Positions 4,396 through 11,559 of a stretch of 64,000 nt of DNA are shown piece by piece. Source of the stretch: Denitrovibrio sp. GTDB lineage: Bacteria > Chrysiogenota > Deferribacteres > Deferribacterales > Geovibrionaceae. The notes under the pieces were generated by a model. That model was given only the letters and a program-made list of their open reading frames with translations. It was not told where the DNA came from and searched no databases. The DNA lies in the NCBI GenBank assembly GCA_002869145.1, contig PKTM01000019.1, forward strand, positions 66,486 through 130,485. The letters run 5' to 3'. The translations under genes were made by a program, and so were the position numbers. Every line of letters starts with the position of its first letter. Within the stretch, counting starts at the first letter, position 1.

Positions 4396-4755
4396 TTAAT
4401 TTTTGATCTGAATATTTATGAAAAGATTTTCGGTGGCTTCCTGAATATCAGGAATATCTGGGTTTTTAAGATCGTAATCATCCAGATAAGCCTTGTTGTT
4501 TTTGGCCAGCAGTTCACATTCGTCTCTAGTGTTGCCTTGAGCCACACAGTCTTTTCTGGAGAAGGTTATGCGGATTTTTTTGTTATCTTCTAAAACTTCT
4601 TCCCCCATGTTTTTTAATTGCGGAGGCTTATTCGCATACTGCTCAACTTTCTCTTTAACAATATCGTTTTTCATGCTTTCAAGCGTTATAGGGGACTCTG
4701 CTGCATTAGCAAAAAACCATACAAAAATTAGCGGGACTATTAAAATTTTATTCAT
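4396..4755 (-). CDS. Small secreted protein, function unknown
   Basis: A 119-residue protein that I do not recognise. Residues 1-19 look like a cleavable signal peptide (hydrophobic core, ending FANA), so the product is probably periplasmic. The mature part is charged and contains two Cys about 11 residues apart (DCVAQ and DECELL), which could form a disulfide in the periplasm. An upstream in-frame ATG at 4791 would add 12 residues in front of the signal peptide and is less likely. It is transcribed divergently from the Cache-CheD lipoprotein; about 150 bp between them could hold both promoters. Confidence 0.6.
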   Translation of the reverse strand: MNKILIVPLIFVWFFANAAESPITLESMKNDIVKEKVEQYANKPPQLKNMGEEVLEDNKKIRITFSRKDCVAQGNTRDECELLAKNNKAYLDDYDLKNPDIPDIQEATENLFINIQIKN

Positions 4756-4903
4756 TATTTTATAAAATATGTATATGTATAAAAAGCGCAATGCTGTCTT
4801 TTATTAGTTAAGAAGCAGATTTTTAATGTAGTCTGGACAATAGTTCTAATAAAATCGTTTTTAGCGTGTTAATATATGTAAAATTTTTATATAGGAATTA
4901 TCT

Positions 4904-6370
4904 ATGAAAGCAAAGTGGCTACTGCTTATAATAATTTGCCTTATGACTGTTGGTTGTGGATCAGAAAAAACGACTATTATGGAGTACTACTACTCACAGC
5001 TTGATAATATAAGAGAGACCAAATATTCCGAGCTCACTTCATATCTGGATAATGTACGCAGTAATGCTAAGGCTGTTGAAAACGACGAGAGCATGAAAAC
5101 ATATTTTACTGATAAGTATGCTCTTTACGCGGAACATAAAAAAACTGGTTATGAAGAAGAGGATTATGAAAAACTCTTCTCCCTCAGAAACAGTATCGAA
5201 AACAGATACATCGAGAAGTATCTGATATTTCATGATGTTCTTTTCATCCACTCAGAAGGTGATATCTTTTATACGGTTAAGAGAGATGATGATTATCACA
5301 AAAACATATTCGAAGGCGAACTTGCAAATACCAGACTTTCTGAAGTACTTAAGGGTGAAAAACCAGAAGCGTTTGTAGATTATGATTATTATTTTGTTAA
5401 TGGGGATGTGTTTGCTTTTTTTGTTGAACCTGTGATTATAAATGGCAAACAAGCTGGATGGTTTGTTTTTCAGTTTGGTATCAATAAGATAAATAGTATT
5501 TTCAGCAAAGATGATGTGCTGGGTAAAACTGGGGAAGTTTTTCTTGTGAATAAAGATGCAGTTATGCTTACAGACTCAAAATTTGTTGCAAATTCGACTA
5601 TATTAAACAAACACCTTTCACAAGAAAACATAAGCCAAAAGTTTGAAGAGGTTCAAGGTCACAAGGTTGTTATTGACTACAGAGGCCGGGAAGCAGTGAC
5701 ATCGTTTAAAGTGGTTACTGTTATGGGGAATGACTGGCTTCTCATAGCAAAGATTGACCGGGACGAAATATTAACTGAGGATTATAGAAAACAGGAAAAA
5801 AATATATGGAAAGACTTTTTGATGCAGGTAGAGAAGACCAAAATGGAATATCCTTCAGAAGAGTATGATTTTGCTCAGAATATTTCTGTTGACATAGATG
5901 AGTTTAAACGTGCCTCAGACGGCGAAATTCTTTATACCCATGGTGTTTCTTACTGCACAGTTGTCATAATAAGCCTTAAGGGTGAGTTTGCATATATGGG
6001 TCACATCAGCGCATATGACAAAATGTATGGCGGTATACAGACAGATATTCTTACCAGAGTGCTTGATCGCATAGATAATTTTGACCTGCTGGACTATAAA
6101 AAACGGGACGTAGAGGTTCGGGTGGTTTCACCTAGAATCATGTTTTCAGAAAATGTGGTAAACACACTTCTTGACTGGGGTGTTCTTTTGCCTCAGATAA
6201 AAATTGCAACAAACGAAGATGCCAGATATGTGAGTCTGTATCACGATTATGAGAACGGTAAAACTTTCACTGAATGGCACTACAACAGCAGGGTAAATAA
6301 TTTGCGGACCAACCTGACCAAAGTAGAAAATTTGCTGGAAATTTATGAGCAGCACTACAGCAGGATGTAA
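4904..6370 (+). CDS. Lipoprotein with Cache-type sensor and CheD-like domain
   Basis: A 488-residue protein. Residues 1-17 are a signal peptide ending in a lipobox-like MTVGC (Cys18), so it is probably an exported lipoprotein. Residues about 25-290 resemble a double Cache sensor (coiled N-terminal helix, then two alpha/beta modules, including GKTGEVFLVN near 207). Residues about 310-488 resemble chemoreceptor deamidase CheD. Thr345, Cys351 and His367 have nearly the spacing of the CheD catalytic Thr-Cys-His. The following region keeps an NVVNTLLDWGVLLP helix and a DARYVSLYHDYENGK end that match the CheD C-terminus. No second membrane segment separates the two domains, so both would lie outside the cytoplasm, which is odd for CheD. 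It may instead be a signalling or peptidase-like cysteine hydrolase. The Cache call is fairly safe, the CheD call is by eye. Confidence 0.7.
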   Translation: MKAKWLLLIIICLMTVGCGSEKTTIMEYYYSQLDNIRETKYSELTSYLDNVRSNAKAVENDESMKTYFTDKYALYAEHKKTGYEEEDYEKLFSLRNSIENRYIEKYLIFHDVLFIHSEGDIFYTVKRDDDYHKNIFEGELANTRLSEVLKGEKPEAFVDYDYYFVNGDVFAFFVEPVIINGKQAGWFVFQFGINKINSIFSKDDVLGKTGEVFLVNKDAVMLTDSKFVANSTILNKHLSQENISQKFEEVQGHKVVIDYRGREAVTSFKVVTVMGNDWLLIAKIDRDEILTEDYRKQEKNIWKDFLMQVEKTKMEYPSEEYDFAQNISVDIDEFKRASDGEILYTHGVSYCTVVIISLKGEFAYMGHISAYDKMYGGIQTDILTRVLDRIDNFDLLDYKKRDVEVRVVSPRIMFSENVVNTLLDWGVLLPQIKIATNEDARYVSLYHDYENGKTFTEWHYNSRVNNLRTNLTKVENLLEIYEQHYSRM

Positions 6371-6450: not shown

Positions 6451-7194
6451 ATGGTTAGATTAATAGTTTGCATGTTCATCTTTTTATTAGTTCCTTTTGA
6501 TTCCTATGCTGTTGATGCACGGGATATCGTCGAAAGATCATATAATTACATGAGAGGGGAGACCTCGTTTGCCAGGGTGCGCATGCGTATCCACAGGCCT
6601 GATTACGAGCGCAAAATGACTCTCAACTCATGGTCAAAAGGGCGTTCGAATGCACTTTTTGTCATTACCAGCCCAAAAAAGGATTCCGGCAGCGGCACGC
6701 TTAAGAAAGGCCGTCAGATGTGGACATATAATCCTAAAATAAATCGTGTGATAAAGCTTCCGCCTTCTATGATGAGCCAATCCTGGATGGGTTCTGATTT
6801 TTCAAACAATGACCTGTCTAAAACCGAAAGCATGATAGACGATTATACCCATGAAATTACTGGTGCAGGAAAAAACTCTGACCAGAAGACATTCACTATT
6901 GTAAGCATTCCAAAGCCCGATGCTCCGGTTGTGTGGGGCTCAGTGCAGATGGAGATACGTGAAGACGGTATTCTACTTGCCCAGCGTTTTTTAGATCAGG
7001 AAGGTGTACCTGTTAAGGAGCTTGTGACAAGCGGGATAAAAAAGATGGGCGGAAAGCTTTTTCCTTCCAGATGGACTATGATAAACCTTGAAGAACACGA
7101 TAGGTTTACTGAAATAGTTTACGAAGAGCTTCAGTTCGGCATAGAGCTTTCTGACAGGATTTTCACCACTACCTATATGAAAAACCAGAGGTAG
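6451..7194 (+). CDS. LolA-like outer-membrane lipoprotein-sorting protein
   Basis: A 247-residue periplasmic protein with signal peptide at 1-20 (core LIVCMFIFLLV, ending SYA). The rest fits the LolA/LolB-like fold of the COG2834 type: a half barrel that carries a lipid or lipidated cargo across the periplasm. Typical features are the KDSGSGTLKKGRQMWTYNP segment (about 70-90) and a late FPSRWTM strand. It ends 2 bp before the first permease gene, so it belongs to the Lol-like cassette that follows. It could hand cargo from the ABC transporter to the barrel protein at 10288-11559. Cargo is not known. Confidence 0.8.
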   Translation: MVRLIVCMFIFLLVPFDSYAVDARDIVERSYNYMRGETSFARVRMRIHRPDYERKMTLNSWSKGRSNALFVITSPKKDSGSGTLKKGRQMWTYNPKINRVIKLPPSMMSQSWMGSDFSNNDLSKTESMIDDYTHEITGAGKNSDQKTFTIVSIPKPDAPVVWGSVQMEIREDGILLAQRFLDQEGVPVKELVTSGIKKMGGKLFPSRWTMINLEEHDRFTEIVYEELQFGIELSDRIFTTTYMKNQR

Positions 7195-7196
7195 TC

Positions 7197-8402
7197 ATGA
7201 CTGACGTATTGATATCCTGGCGCAATGTCTGGCGTAATCCCCGCAGGTCGCTGCTGACCATATTGACTATAGCTTTTGCGGCGGCTCTTCTTGTTTTTAT
7301 GCTCTCGTTTCAGTTTGGAACCTACGACCAGATGATAAACTCTTCCGTAAAACTTTCATCAGGACACCTTCAGATAATGGCTGACGGCTATCACAAAAAA
7401 GAAAAGGTGAGGCTTGTTGTGGAAAATCCTGAAAAATACACAGAAGCCCTCAGGAAAAACCAAAACGTAAAAAGCTTTACACGCAGAAGCGAGGCCTTTG
7501 TGATAGCCGAATCAGGTGAAATGACAGCAGGAGTTATGCTTATAGGTGTGGATGCTGAAGGTGAAAAGCGCGTCTCCGAGATAGATGAGCGAATTATAAA
7601 AGGCACATATCTTTCAGATGGCAAAGCAGTGGTCGGATATCTTCTGGCAGAAAAACTGAAGCTTGAAACAGGCAGTGAGATAACAGTCATTGGACAAGCT
7701 CGTGACGGGTCTGTGGCAGCATTGGTACTCACTGTGTCTGGTATTTTCAAAACAGGCTACGAGGAATATGACCGGAATGTCATGATGATGGACATTGATT
7801 CTTTTGGCGAGGCATTTTACATGCGGGGCGCTGTGCACAGGATAGTTGTTATGGCAAACAGCACAAAAAGCATTGAGCCGATTGAAAACGACATGGCGGT
7901 AAACTTTAAAGATGTAAAGATATACACCTGGCATGAGCTTACCCCGGGGCTCAAGCAGAGCATAGAACTGGACATGGTAAGCGGATTTATTATGTATGCC
8001 GTGCTTGTTATTGTGGTTGCTTTCAGCATTATAAACACATTTTTTATGACAGTCTTTGAACGTACTAAGGAGTTCGGCGTTCTTATGTCGCTTGGTACCT
8101 CTGCAAAAAGGCTTATATATATCATTATCACAGAATCAGTTTTCATAACACTTCTAGGGCTGGCCGCAGGAGTATTTGCTGGTGCAGCGGTAACTCTATA
8201 TTTCTCTGATGCAGGTATACAGATACAGGGTATGGAGCTTATGGAGCAGTATGGGCTTTCCGGTGCGCTTTATCCAAAACTGTCTGCTTTATCACTGCTG
8301 CTTGGACCTGCGCTTGTTGCTGGAGTAACACTGTTTTCTGCAGTTTTGCCTGCTTTTCGAATCATCCGCTTAAAGCCCGCTGATGCACTGAAGGGGGTGT
8401 GA
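7197..8402 (+). CDS. ABC transporter permease, FtsX/LolE-MacB type (first)
   Basis: A 401-residue permease with one N-terminal membrane segment (about 20-42), a large periplasmic domain (about 43-265) and three C-terminal segments (about 270-295, 315-345, 360-390), the FtsX/MacB layout. It opens with the SWRNVWRNPRRSLLT motif common to this family, and has the FERTKEFGVLMSLG cytoplasmic loop that contacts the ATPase. It lies between the LolA-like gene (2 bp gap) and a second, different permease (1 bp gap), implying a heterodimer like LolCE. Such transporters use ATP on the cytoplasmic side to push periplasmic cargo rather than to move it through the membrane. Confidence 0.88.
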   Translation: MTDVLISWRNVWRNPRRSLLTILTIAFAAALLVFMLSFQFGTYDQMINSSVKLSSGHLQIMADGYHKKEKVRLVVENPEKYTEALRKNQNVKSFTRRSEAFVIAESGEMTAGVMLIGVDAEGEKRVSEIDERIIKGTYLSDGKAVVGYLLAEKLKLETGSEITVIGQARDGSVAALVLTVSGIFKTGYEEYDRNVMMMDIDSFGEAFYMRGAVHRIVVMANSTKSIEPIENDMAVNFKDVKIYTWHELTPGLKQSIELDMVSGFIMYAVLVIVVAFSIINTFFMTVFERTKEFGVLMSLGTSAKRLIYIIITESVFITLLGLAAGVFAGAAVTLYFSDAGIQIQGMELMEQYGLSGALYPKLSALSLLLGPALVAGVTLFSAVLPAFRIIRLKPADALKGV

Positions 8403-8403
8403 T

Positions 8404-9621
8404 TTGACTATGGCGTGGCGCAATATATGGCGCAGCAAGAGACGAACACTAGTTATTATTTCAGCGGTTTTCATAGGTGTTGCCAGTATGGTGTTCTTGT
8501 CTGCTATCTCCAGGGGGATGGTGTACAGCATGGTTGAAAACAGTATAAATAATTTCACAGGACACATACTTATTCGTGATGCTGATTTTGTTTCTGACCC
8601 TGTTGTAGAAAACAGGATAAAGGATGCCGAAAGCATTGCTGAAAGGGTGAAAAACGAGCTTCCAGAAGCGAAAGTTGTAAAGCGGATAAGGCTTAATGCG
8701 GTTTTGAACACTGCCAGAAACACCGAGGGTGTCAGTCTGGTCGGTATTTACATTAACAAAGAAGAAGACGCTTCTTTTATTGGCTCTGCGCCTCTTGAAG
8801 GGAGTGGTCTGAAAAACGACAATGCTATACTTATAGGTAGAGCTTTGTCGGAGAAGATAGGGCTTGGGCAGGGTAAAAAAGTCATTATCAGTATGCAGAG
8901 TGCCGAAGGCGAGACTGTATCCAGAGCATATCGTATAGCAGGTATATATGATGCTGGGCAGGAGCAACTTGAAAAGCGTTACGTTTTTGTGACATATAAC
9001 TCATCAGAAAAAATGCTAAGTGTGCATGGCGATGCCACAGAGATAAGTATCATACTGCCTGAAAATGATGTCGAATCCGATATCTATTCCGCTTATTCAG
9101 AAGAACTAAAAGCTGTTTTGGATAAAAAGTATTCTGTGATGAGCTGGCGTGAGGTTATGCCTGCACTCTCCTCATACCTTGACCTGTTTGACAGTTTTAT
9201 GCTCATCTGGTATCTGGTTGTTTTTATAGCTATGGGTTTTGGCATTGTTAATACTATCCTGATGGCTGTTTATGAACGCATAAGAGAATTTGGTCTTATA
9301 CGTGCTTTGGGTGTTAAGTGGACAGGTATCTTCCGCATGGTTGTTGCCGAGACATCTCTCATAATCCTTTTAGGGCTCGCCGCAGGAAATATTGCCGGGC
9401 TTTTGCTTGTATGGTATTTCTCTTCGGGAGGGCTTGACCTTACTCAGTTTGCAAAAGGTGTGGAGATGTTTGGTGTCAGTAGGGTGGTTTACCCTGTTTT
9501 AACATTTGGAGATATTCTTATGACTGATGCTACTGTGCTTATACTTGGCTTGATAATATCGCTTTATCCGGCTTATAAAGCGTGCAGTTTTACCCCCGTT
9601 CAGACAATGCGGGATATGTGA
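8404..9621 (+). CDS. ABC transporter permease, FtsX/LolE-MacB type (second)
   Basis: A 405-residue permease with the same four-segment plan as its upstream neighbour: N-terminal segment about 15-38, periplasmic domain, then three C-terminal segments. AWRNIWRSKRRTLV opens it and YERIREFGLIRALG is the coupling loop. The start is a TTG at 8404 or the ATG two codons later (8410); a GGGGGT stretch about 10 bases upstream serves as ribosome site for either. It is clearly diverged from the first permease, so the pair probably forms a heterodimer. The ATPase gene starts 8 bp after its stop. Confidence 0.87.
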   Translation: MTMAWRNIWRSKRRTLVIISAVFIGVASMVFLSAISRGMVYSMVENSINNFTGHILIRDADFVSDPVVENRIKDAESIAERVKNELPEAKVVKRIRLNAVLNTARNTEGVSLVGIYINKEEDASFIGSAPLEGSGLKNDNAILIGRALSEKIGLGQGKKVIISMQSAEGETVSRAYRIAGIYDAGQEQLEKRYVFVTYNSSEKMLSVHGDATEISIILPENDVESDIYSAYSEELKAVLDKKYSVMSWREVMPALSSYLDLFDSFMLIWYLVVFIAMGFGIVNTILMAVYERIREFGLIRALGVKWTGIFRMVVAETSLIILLGLAAGNIAGLLLVWYFSSGGLDLTQFAKGVEMFGVSRVVYPVLTFGDILMTDATVLILGLIISLYPAYKACSFTPVQTMRDM

Positions 9622-9629
9622 GGTGAAAT

Positions 9630-10313
9630 GTGTCTCTTATTGAAATCAGCAATATAAAAAAGATATATACTAAAGGGAAGGTTCAGGTGAAGGCTCTTGA
9701 CGGGGTCAGTCTGACTTTTAATGAAGGAGAGTTTTCATCTTTAGCAGGGCCCTCCGGCAGCGGAAAAACCACTCTTTTGAACCTGATTGGCGGGATAGAT
9801 TCTGCTGACAGCGGCAGCATCTGCCTTAAAGGGCTTGATCTTACAGGTATGAGCAGTTCTGAGCTTGCATAGCTGCGTTTGCACGATATAGGCTTTGTTT
9901 TTCAGGCTTATAACCTTATACCAGTTCTGTCGGCTGTGGAAAATGTGGAATATGTCCTTAGGCTGCGGGGAATGAAGAAGAGCGAGTACAGGGAGCGTGC
10001 AATGGACATGCTTGATGATGTGGGGCTTGCTGATATGGCTGACAGACGTCCCGCAGAGCTCTCCGGCGGACAGCAGCAGAGAGTAGCTGTAGCCAGAGCT
10101 ATTGTTGGCGAGCCGGCGCTTGTTCTGGCTGATGAACCTACTGCAAATCTGGATTCTAAAACAGGTGAAAGCCTGCTTGAGCTTATGGGAAAGATGAACA
10201 GCGATAAGGGTGTGACTTTTATTTTTTCCACCCATGATAAGATGGTAATGGATTTTGCAAAGCGCTTGATAATACTTAAGGATGGTCATGTTGAGAGCGA
10301 CAATACTAAATAA
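9630..10313 (+). pseudogene. ABC transporter ATPase (LolD/MacB type), interrupted by in-frame TAG
   Basis: The frame from a GTG at 9630 encodes an ABC ATPase: Walker A GPSGSGKTT near residues 40-48, Q-loop GFVFQ, signature LSGGQQQR, Walker B VLADEPTANLD and a switch His in FSTHD. A TAG at 9870-9872 falls between Walker A and the Q-loop. The frame reopens at once with no shift and carries the rest of the domain to 10313. Family members have a sense codon here (ELAxLR), and GAG, AAG or CAG could each give TAG by one change. Re-initiation at the TTG 9879 would lack Walker A and be inactive. Either the gene is dead, the codon is suppressed, or the base is a sequencing error. It is the only ATPase of the cassette. 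Confidence 0.85.
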
Positions 10314-11559
10314 TTTTTTATTGATACTGCTTTTGCTGAAGCCTTTTACTGTGTTTGCCGAAGATTTTGTTATAAAAGGTCTTCTCAAATCTCTCAGTAC
10401 AATAGATTCTTACGGCGCATCCAGCATTATAGATCTTGTCGGTGACGAAAGCGCGATGGTACAGGAGCGTGTAGTGGGGCGCATCATTGTAAACTCTGCC
10501 GTGGCGGAAAATACAACGCTGCACGTGCACTACGAGAACAGTTTTTCAAAAGGGGAATACTTGTCAGCAGTAGATGCTTTAAATGGGCGAACTGGGCATA
10601 TAGATATGTTAAATGCTGATTCGCCTAGTGACAGGTCACAGGTCTTTTCGCTTACTCAGGAATATTTAGATGATAACGGCGAGCTGGCATATCACAGGCT
10701 GGACAGGCTTTATGTGGAGTATGTGCTGGATGATATGAATATACGAATAGGCAGGCAGGCGCTTACATGGGGTGGCGGAAAAGCATTCAACCCGCTGGAT
10801 ATAATGAACCCGTTTTCTCCTACGGATACCATAAGAGACTATAAGAACGGCACTGATATGATCGCCATACAGACATATTCGAAGATGTTTGCCGATGTTC
10901 AGGGTGTTCTTGTGCCAAGAAGAGGTGATGATTCCGGTGAATTAGAATATGAGGAATCTTCCGCTGCGTTAAAACTTAGAAATACATTCATCGAAACAGA
11001 TGCCGAGGTGCTTTTTGGATGGCACTACGGAGAGCCTTTTGCAGGCGGGGGTATTTCTGTTTTTATAGGTGAGGCGGCTTTGCGTATAGATGCGCTTGCT
11101 TCCAAAGGAAAGCACAAAGACAGCTTTTCAGCAGTTTCTAATATTGACTATTCATGGCTTTTTCTGGGCAAAAATATTTATGGTTATTTTGAGCTGTATT
11201 ACAACAGCCTTGGAAAAGGCTCCATAGATGATGTTTTGGCAGATAGAGAGCTTTTTGAAAGGATAGCCCGAGGTGAGATGTACCTCAGTGACAGATATTA
11301 TGCATCAGCAGGGGTTGTTTACGAATTACACCCGCTTATAAATCTCAACATGTCTTTTATTTACAATATTTTAGATTCGTCATATGTGCTGCAGCCCAGA
11401 GTGGAATGGGACATACGAGAGAACATGCGCATACTGGCGGGAATAGACCTGCCAGAGGGCAATCTGGGGAGTGAGTTCGGCGGGTTTTATGATAATAGAG
11501 GTGGCGGAGTTATTTCTCCTGCAAAAAGGATATATGGTCAGGTTGTACTGTATTTCTAA
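10288..11559 (+). CDS. Outer-membrane beta-barrel protein (DUF1302-like)
   Basis: A 423-residue protein with signal peptide (hydrophobic 8-20, ending FA) followed by alternating polar/aromatic strands typical of an outer-membrane barrel and an aromatic C-terminal residue (VVLYF). The RIGRQALTWGGGKAFNPLD segment (about 150-168) resembles uncharacterised DUF1302-type barrels that sit next to LolA-like and FtsX-type genes. ATG 10288 is preferred because AAGGA at 10278-10282 is 5 bases upstream; ATG 10282 overlaps that site. It overlaps the ATPase gene by 26 bp. Probably the outer-membrane receiver or channel of the cassette. Exact role unknown. Confidence 0.75.
   Translation: MLRATILNNFLLILLLLKPFTVFAEDFVIKGLLKSLSTIDSYGASSIIDLVGDESAMVQERVVGRIIVNSAVAENTTLHVHYENSFSKGEYLSAVDALNGRTGHIDMLNADSPSDRSQVFSLTQEYLDDNGELAYHRLDRLYVEYVLDDMNIRIGRQALTWGGGKAFNPLDIMNPFSPTDTIRDYKNGTDMIAIQTYSKMFADVQGVLVPRRGDDSGELEYEESSAALKLRNTFIETDAEVLFGWHYGEPFAGGGISVFIGEAALRIDALASKGKHKDSFSAVSNIDYSWLFLGKNIYGYFELYYNSLGKGSIDDVLADRELFERIARGEMYLSDRYYASAGVVYELHPLINLNMSFIYNILDSSYVLQPRVEWDIRENMRILAGIDLPEGNLGSEFGGFYDNRGGGVISPAKRIYGQVVLYF

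Follow-up and report, generated by a model that had tools for sequence, protein, structure and literature searches.

A predicted exported protein family that joins a dCache sensor to a CheD-like domain

CheD, a receptor glutamine deamidase, is a cytoplasmic enzyme that tunes chemotaxis receptors, and to our knowledge it has until now been known only inside cells. One gene in the window, the whole 64,000-nucleotide stretch of Denitrovibrio sp. DNA analyzed here, raises the question of whether a CheD-like thiol enzyme could also act outside the cytoplasm under the control of its own ligand sensor. The first-pass annotation proposed such an arrangement for the product of this gene and knew of no described family with the same layout. 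We likewise found no Pfam, NCBIfam, or PHROG model for it, and a search of the open-access literature returned no paper on an exported or Cache-fused CheD. The family is thus apparently undescribed.

Architecture and distribution of the family

The gene and the parts of its product are as follows.

4904..6370, + strand: coding sequence for a predicted exported protein of 488 residues with dCache and CheD-like domains, one intact open reading frame
4904..4954, + strand: signal sequence, residues 1–17, the sole strongly hydrophobic segment (KD 1.75); the next residue, Cys18, belongs to a weak lipobox (TVGC)
4976..5746, + strand: dCache_1 sensor domain, residues 25–281 (Pfam PF02743, E 1.6e-10)
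5879..6367, + strand: CheD-like domain, residues 326–488, delimited by family alignments and matches to CheD profiles
5936..5938, + strand: codon of Thr345, at the position of CheD Thr21; Thr in 14 and Ser in two of the 16 family members
5954..5956, + strand: codon of Cys351, the putative nucleophile, kept in 16 of 16
6002..6004, + strand: codon of His367, the putative catalytic base, kept in 16 of 16

The domain that precedes the CheD-like region is indeed of the Cache type, as had been suggested. Its PF02743 score of 41.4 bits lies slightly below the curated cut-off of 45 bits; dCache_1 was nevertheless found in all 10 homologs scanned, five of them above the cut-off with scores of up to 63 bits, and Foldseek recovers dCache domains with a model of the full-length window protein. 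The spacings of 6 and 16 between Thr345, Cys351, and His367 can be read directly from the open reading frame. Residues 326–488 have no match among Pfam, NCBIfam, and PHROG models and, when used alone, none among PDB sequences.

A profile of the three Denitrovibrio sequences, run over 385 genomes, recovered this architecture from two more phyla, represented by G075 and G254. Genome searches expanded around these matches brought the family to 16 genes with the signal–dCache–CheD-like layout, in 14 genomes of three phyla. Its distribution is patchy: in the host phylum only two of 51 genomes carry it, namely the window genome and a second Denitrovibrio genome, the MAG G019, and in the other two phyla it occurs in seven of 80 and five of 24 genomes. 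G019 encodes the full protein as two paralogs, L058 and L059, at 43–45% identity. No further members were found in the phylum of G156, and no homolog of the C-terminal domain was found in viral contigs, phages, or plasmids. Two 504-residue frames with weak profile matches (L062, L070) proved to be unrelated membrane proteins that have no CheD-like domain. In one of the two Denitrovibrio sp. BM704 paralogs (L059 5038–6513, equivalent to L005 1486–2961), an in-frame TGA at L005 2533–2535 marks either a pseudogene or a sequence error; selenocysteine is ruled out, as the codon falls on the conserved Gly347 position and not on Cys351.

Across the 16 domains, overall identity falls to as low as 24%, and the expectation that the three putative catalytic residues would be invariant holds for Cys351 and His367 but not strictly for position 345, where Ser can replace Thr. 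The alignment also reveals positions specific to the family, including a VD[ILMV][NDS]E motif, an invariant Asp five residues past the His, and SQI...W. Cys351 is the only cysteine in the mature window protein besides Cys18, and several relatives likewise have a single cysteine in the mature domain. Both domains are under purifying selection, with dN/dS of roughly 0.08–0.2.

Every member with a complete N terminus begins with a signal-type hydrophobic stretch; in three of the 16 (L118, L120, L121) this region is missing at a contig end. As had been claimed, no membrane segment separates the signal sequence from the CheD-like domain: strong hydrophobicity in the window protein is confined to the first 20 residues, past residue 35 no stretch reaches membrane-like hydropathy, and by the same measure 14 members have no membrane segment beyond the signal sequence. 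The proposal of a lipoprotein fared less well, for the N terminus is signal-like but the lipobox is weak, with a Thr at −3 that is atypical of the canonical [LVI][ASTVI][GAS]C, and it is absent from L058 and L059. Of the remaining members with complete N termini, roughly half (L113, L122, L124–L127) have lipobox-like motifs, and the signals of L058, L059, L112, L117, and L119 have an ordinary secretory (SPase I-like) look, so it is export that appears to be conserved and not lipidation. These N termini are best accounted for if family members are exported and extracytoplasmic, residing in the periplasm and sometimes lipid-anchored.

Relationship to CheD

The family is not within the Pfam CheD family. 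PF03975 matches neither the window protein nor any of the 16 domains, the gathering threshold not being reached; the window locus is not among its matches at E ≤ 10, and two CheD motifs, HxMLP after the His and the glycine-rich strand-turn GG[AS], are absent from the family alignment. Tests with shallow input were also uninformative. The three Denitrovibrio sequences scored no better than shuffled controls against the first CheD sets, composed of host-phylum CheD, and an AlphaFold model of the domain from three-sequence input is of low confidence (pLDDT 55), so that its lack of a significant Foldseek match in the PDB (nominally, cytidine deaminases rank first) and its CheD-like order of strands and helices both carry little weight. 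The missing Pfam match and the null results would be in keeping with a domain unrelated to CheD and a coincidental Thr/Cys/His spacing. We instead attribute the early null result to thin alignment depth and to the predominance of one CheD type in the host-phylum set. Comparison of CheD loci L028–L057 with L160–L188 distinguishes two such types, T-x5-C, similar to Thermotoga maritima CheD, and T-x4-C, which is dominant in the host phylum; the family resembles the former and not the latter.

With all 16 domains, three independent profile tests point to CheD with the triad in register, and a coincidence of spacing is highly improbable in their light. First, in a search of 177,635 PDB sequences, the family profile placed T. 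maritima CheD (2F9Z) first, with the Thr, Cys, and His aligned; the E value of 0.26 is not significant database-wide, but 2F9Z is the one structure that the first-pass annotation had named beforehand. A trimmed family alignment returned 2F9Z as its sole match up to E 10. Second, when 385 genomes were searched blind with the profile, the seven matches that ranked next after the true members were all CheD proteins (E 8.7e-4 to 0.016 per genome), and the six distinct sequences among them each match PF03975 at E < 1e-26. Third, hhalign aligned the family with an independent CheD set over 138 columns with a score of 37.3 (P 2.7e-5), a value reached by none of 500 column shuffles, for which the maximum was 21.4. 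The score was 40.1 without the Denitrovibrio sequences and 25.5 with these alone. The CheD set used here comprised proteins from many genomes chosen by PF03975 only, and it replaced an earlier set of seven sequences that was biased because the family profile itself had picked them.

The T. maritima reference triad is Thr21/Cys27/His44 (PMC7022378), as the first-pass annotation had it and as our profile alignment agrees, and the spacing of 16 in the window protein as opposed to 17 in CheD is accounted for by one inserted residue. The family and CheD share the order Thr/Ser-Cys-His with near-identical spacing, an alignment over the whole domain, and a similar N-terminal strand (VDMDEF...LLTYGVSTC in the family and VGMGDF...LVTYGLGSC in CheD). 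The alignment of the domain with CheD extends to the C terminus, but the terminal "ARxV...GK" pattern that had been described as retained is not conserved among the relatives. Homology to CheD is very likely on these comparisons.

The wider CNF1/YfiH-like cysteine hydrolase superfamily is characterized by an alpha-beta-beta sandwich with Cys-His-(Ser/Thr) residues. The family has these residues by homology to CheD and may have the fold, although the confidence of the model is too low for confirmation. In NTAN1, a member of this superfamily, Ser69/Cys75/His92 superpose on CheD Thr21/Cys27/His44 (PMC7022378). NTAN1 thus has a Ser in place of the Thr, as do two of the 16 family members, but it differs from the family in localization and fusion, and no NTAN1 structure was matched when the PDB was searched with the family profile up to E 10. 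YfiH proteins gave no signal against this profile, with only three YfiH sequences in the set. CheD itself is cytoplasmic, stand-alone, and linked to chemotaxis, whereas the family proteins have a signal sequence, a dCache fusion, and no chemotaxis operon at most loci. From the profile and N-terminal evidence we conclude that the CheD superfamily probably has a new branch in this family, one that lies outside the cytoplasm and is coupled to a Cache sensor of its own.

Genomic context

Across the loci examined, no conserved gene neighborhood names a substrate. The genes that flank the family in the window and at one other locus are listed below.

Window 4396–4791, − strand: 131-residue open reading frame with a signal-like stretch and no Pfam match, diverging from the 4904–6370 gene
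Window 6451–11559, directly downstream of the 4904–6370 gene: LolA-like protein, two MacB/FtsX-like permeases, ATPase, and probable outer-membrane protein
L154 8140–10884, − strand: chemoreceptor of 914 residues with two dCache matches, upstream of a family member across a 97-bp gap

The window cluster, which begins 80 bp past the family gene with the LolA-like gene and continues with the permeases, is likely to serve lipoprotein or lipid export. Such genes do not adjoin other members, the one exception being two similar permeases close to the G474 gene. Within the cluster, the ATPase gene (9630–10313) has an in-frame TAG at 9870–9872 that divides it into two open reading frames in the same frame, and it is either a broken gene or a sequence error. 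The G443 member (L154), which lies on the same strand as the dCache chemoreceptor gene 97 bp upstream, provides a single hint at chemoreceptors. CheD genes lie ≈14–17 kb from both G019 paralogs; we rejected these as a functional link, the intervening genes being unrelated.

Proposed activity and its significance

The notion of an extracytoplasmic CheD-like thiol enzyme with its own sensor is supported at the sequence level by the export-type N termini, the triad, and the CheD profiles. In the mechanism that we propose, the signal sequence would export the protein, which would remain outside the cytoplasm; the dCache domain would bind a small extracellular ligand; and the attached Thr(Ser)-Cys-His domain would be a thiol amidohydrolase acting on an extracytoplasmic substrate, most likely by deamidation of Gln/Asn side chains or peptide termini. 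Ligand binding would gate the enzyme through the linker and not through a transmembrane helix. We infer catalysis, deamidation, and gating from distinct features: an active thiol enzyme is favored by the invariant triad positions, the lone cysteine of the mature domain, and the purifying selection on both domains; deamidation is the likeliest reaction because of the homology to CheD; and ligand control within the same compartment is suggested by the dCache domain directly in front, with no membrane helix. Overall, an exported, ligand-gated fusion of dCache with a CheD-superfamily thiol amidohydrolase, most likely a deamidase, is the reading that we regard as probable, if by no great measure.

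Since HxMLP and GG[AS] are not kept, substrate recognition must differ from that of CheD, or catalysis may be lost. In the latter case the exported domain could serve to bind a receptor or peptide, which would make the protein a soluble co-receptor that presents a ligand to a chemoreceptor, like a binding protein. A receptor-type dCache domain, the member that adjoins a chemoreceptor gene, and the loss of these substrate-side motifs are all in keeping with this role. We think it unlikely, however, as Cys and His are retained in 16 of 16 domains and Thr/Ser in 16 of 16 despite the depth of divergence, and chemistry is the simplest reason for an exported protein to conserve a lone cysteine.

A domain with the same fold and site could instead catalyze another reaction, as a thiol protease or peptidase, a transglutaminase-like enzyme, or a cell-wall amidase acting on the envelope. 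The reactions of the CNF1/YfiH-like superfamily are varied (PMC7022378), and peptide and murein substrates are available outside the cytoplasm. In every profile test, however, the nearest relative is CheD, a Gln deamidase, and the comparison with YfiH, albeit with so few sequences, gave no match; we consider such a reaction quite unlikely.

For the favored deamidase, the periplasmic part of neighboring chemoreceptors is one candidate substrate class. A more specific version, in which a one-component enzyme is switched by its ligand-bound Cache domain to edit Gln/Asn residues of periplasmic or surface proteins, such as chemoreceptor sensor domains, is possible but doubtful.

The family has the same extracytoplasmic sensor domain as dCache_1 chemoreceptors and sensor kinases but, unlike these, has neither a second transmembrane helix nor a cytoplasmic output. 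According to a major survey, an extracellular Cache domain can signal only via its C-terminal transmembrane helix (PMC4822843), a rule to which the family appears to be an exception. If the proposal is true, an extracellular output would here be attached directly to an extracellular Cache domain, an option denied by that survey, and the family would provide an instance of protein deamidation that is regulated outside the bacterial cytoplasm. The family is small, its domains are soluble, and its sites for point mutants are clear (C351, H367, T345), which would make the proposal directly testable.
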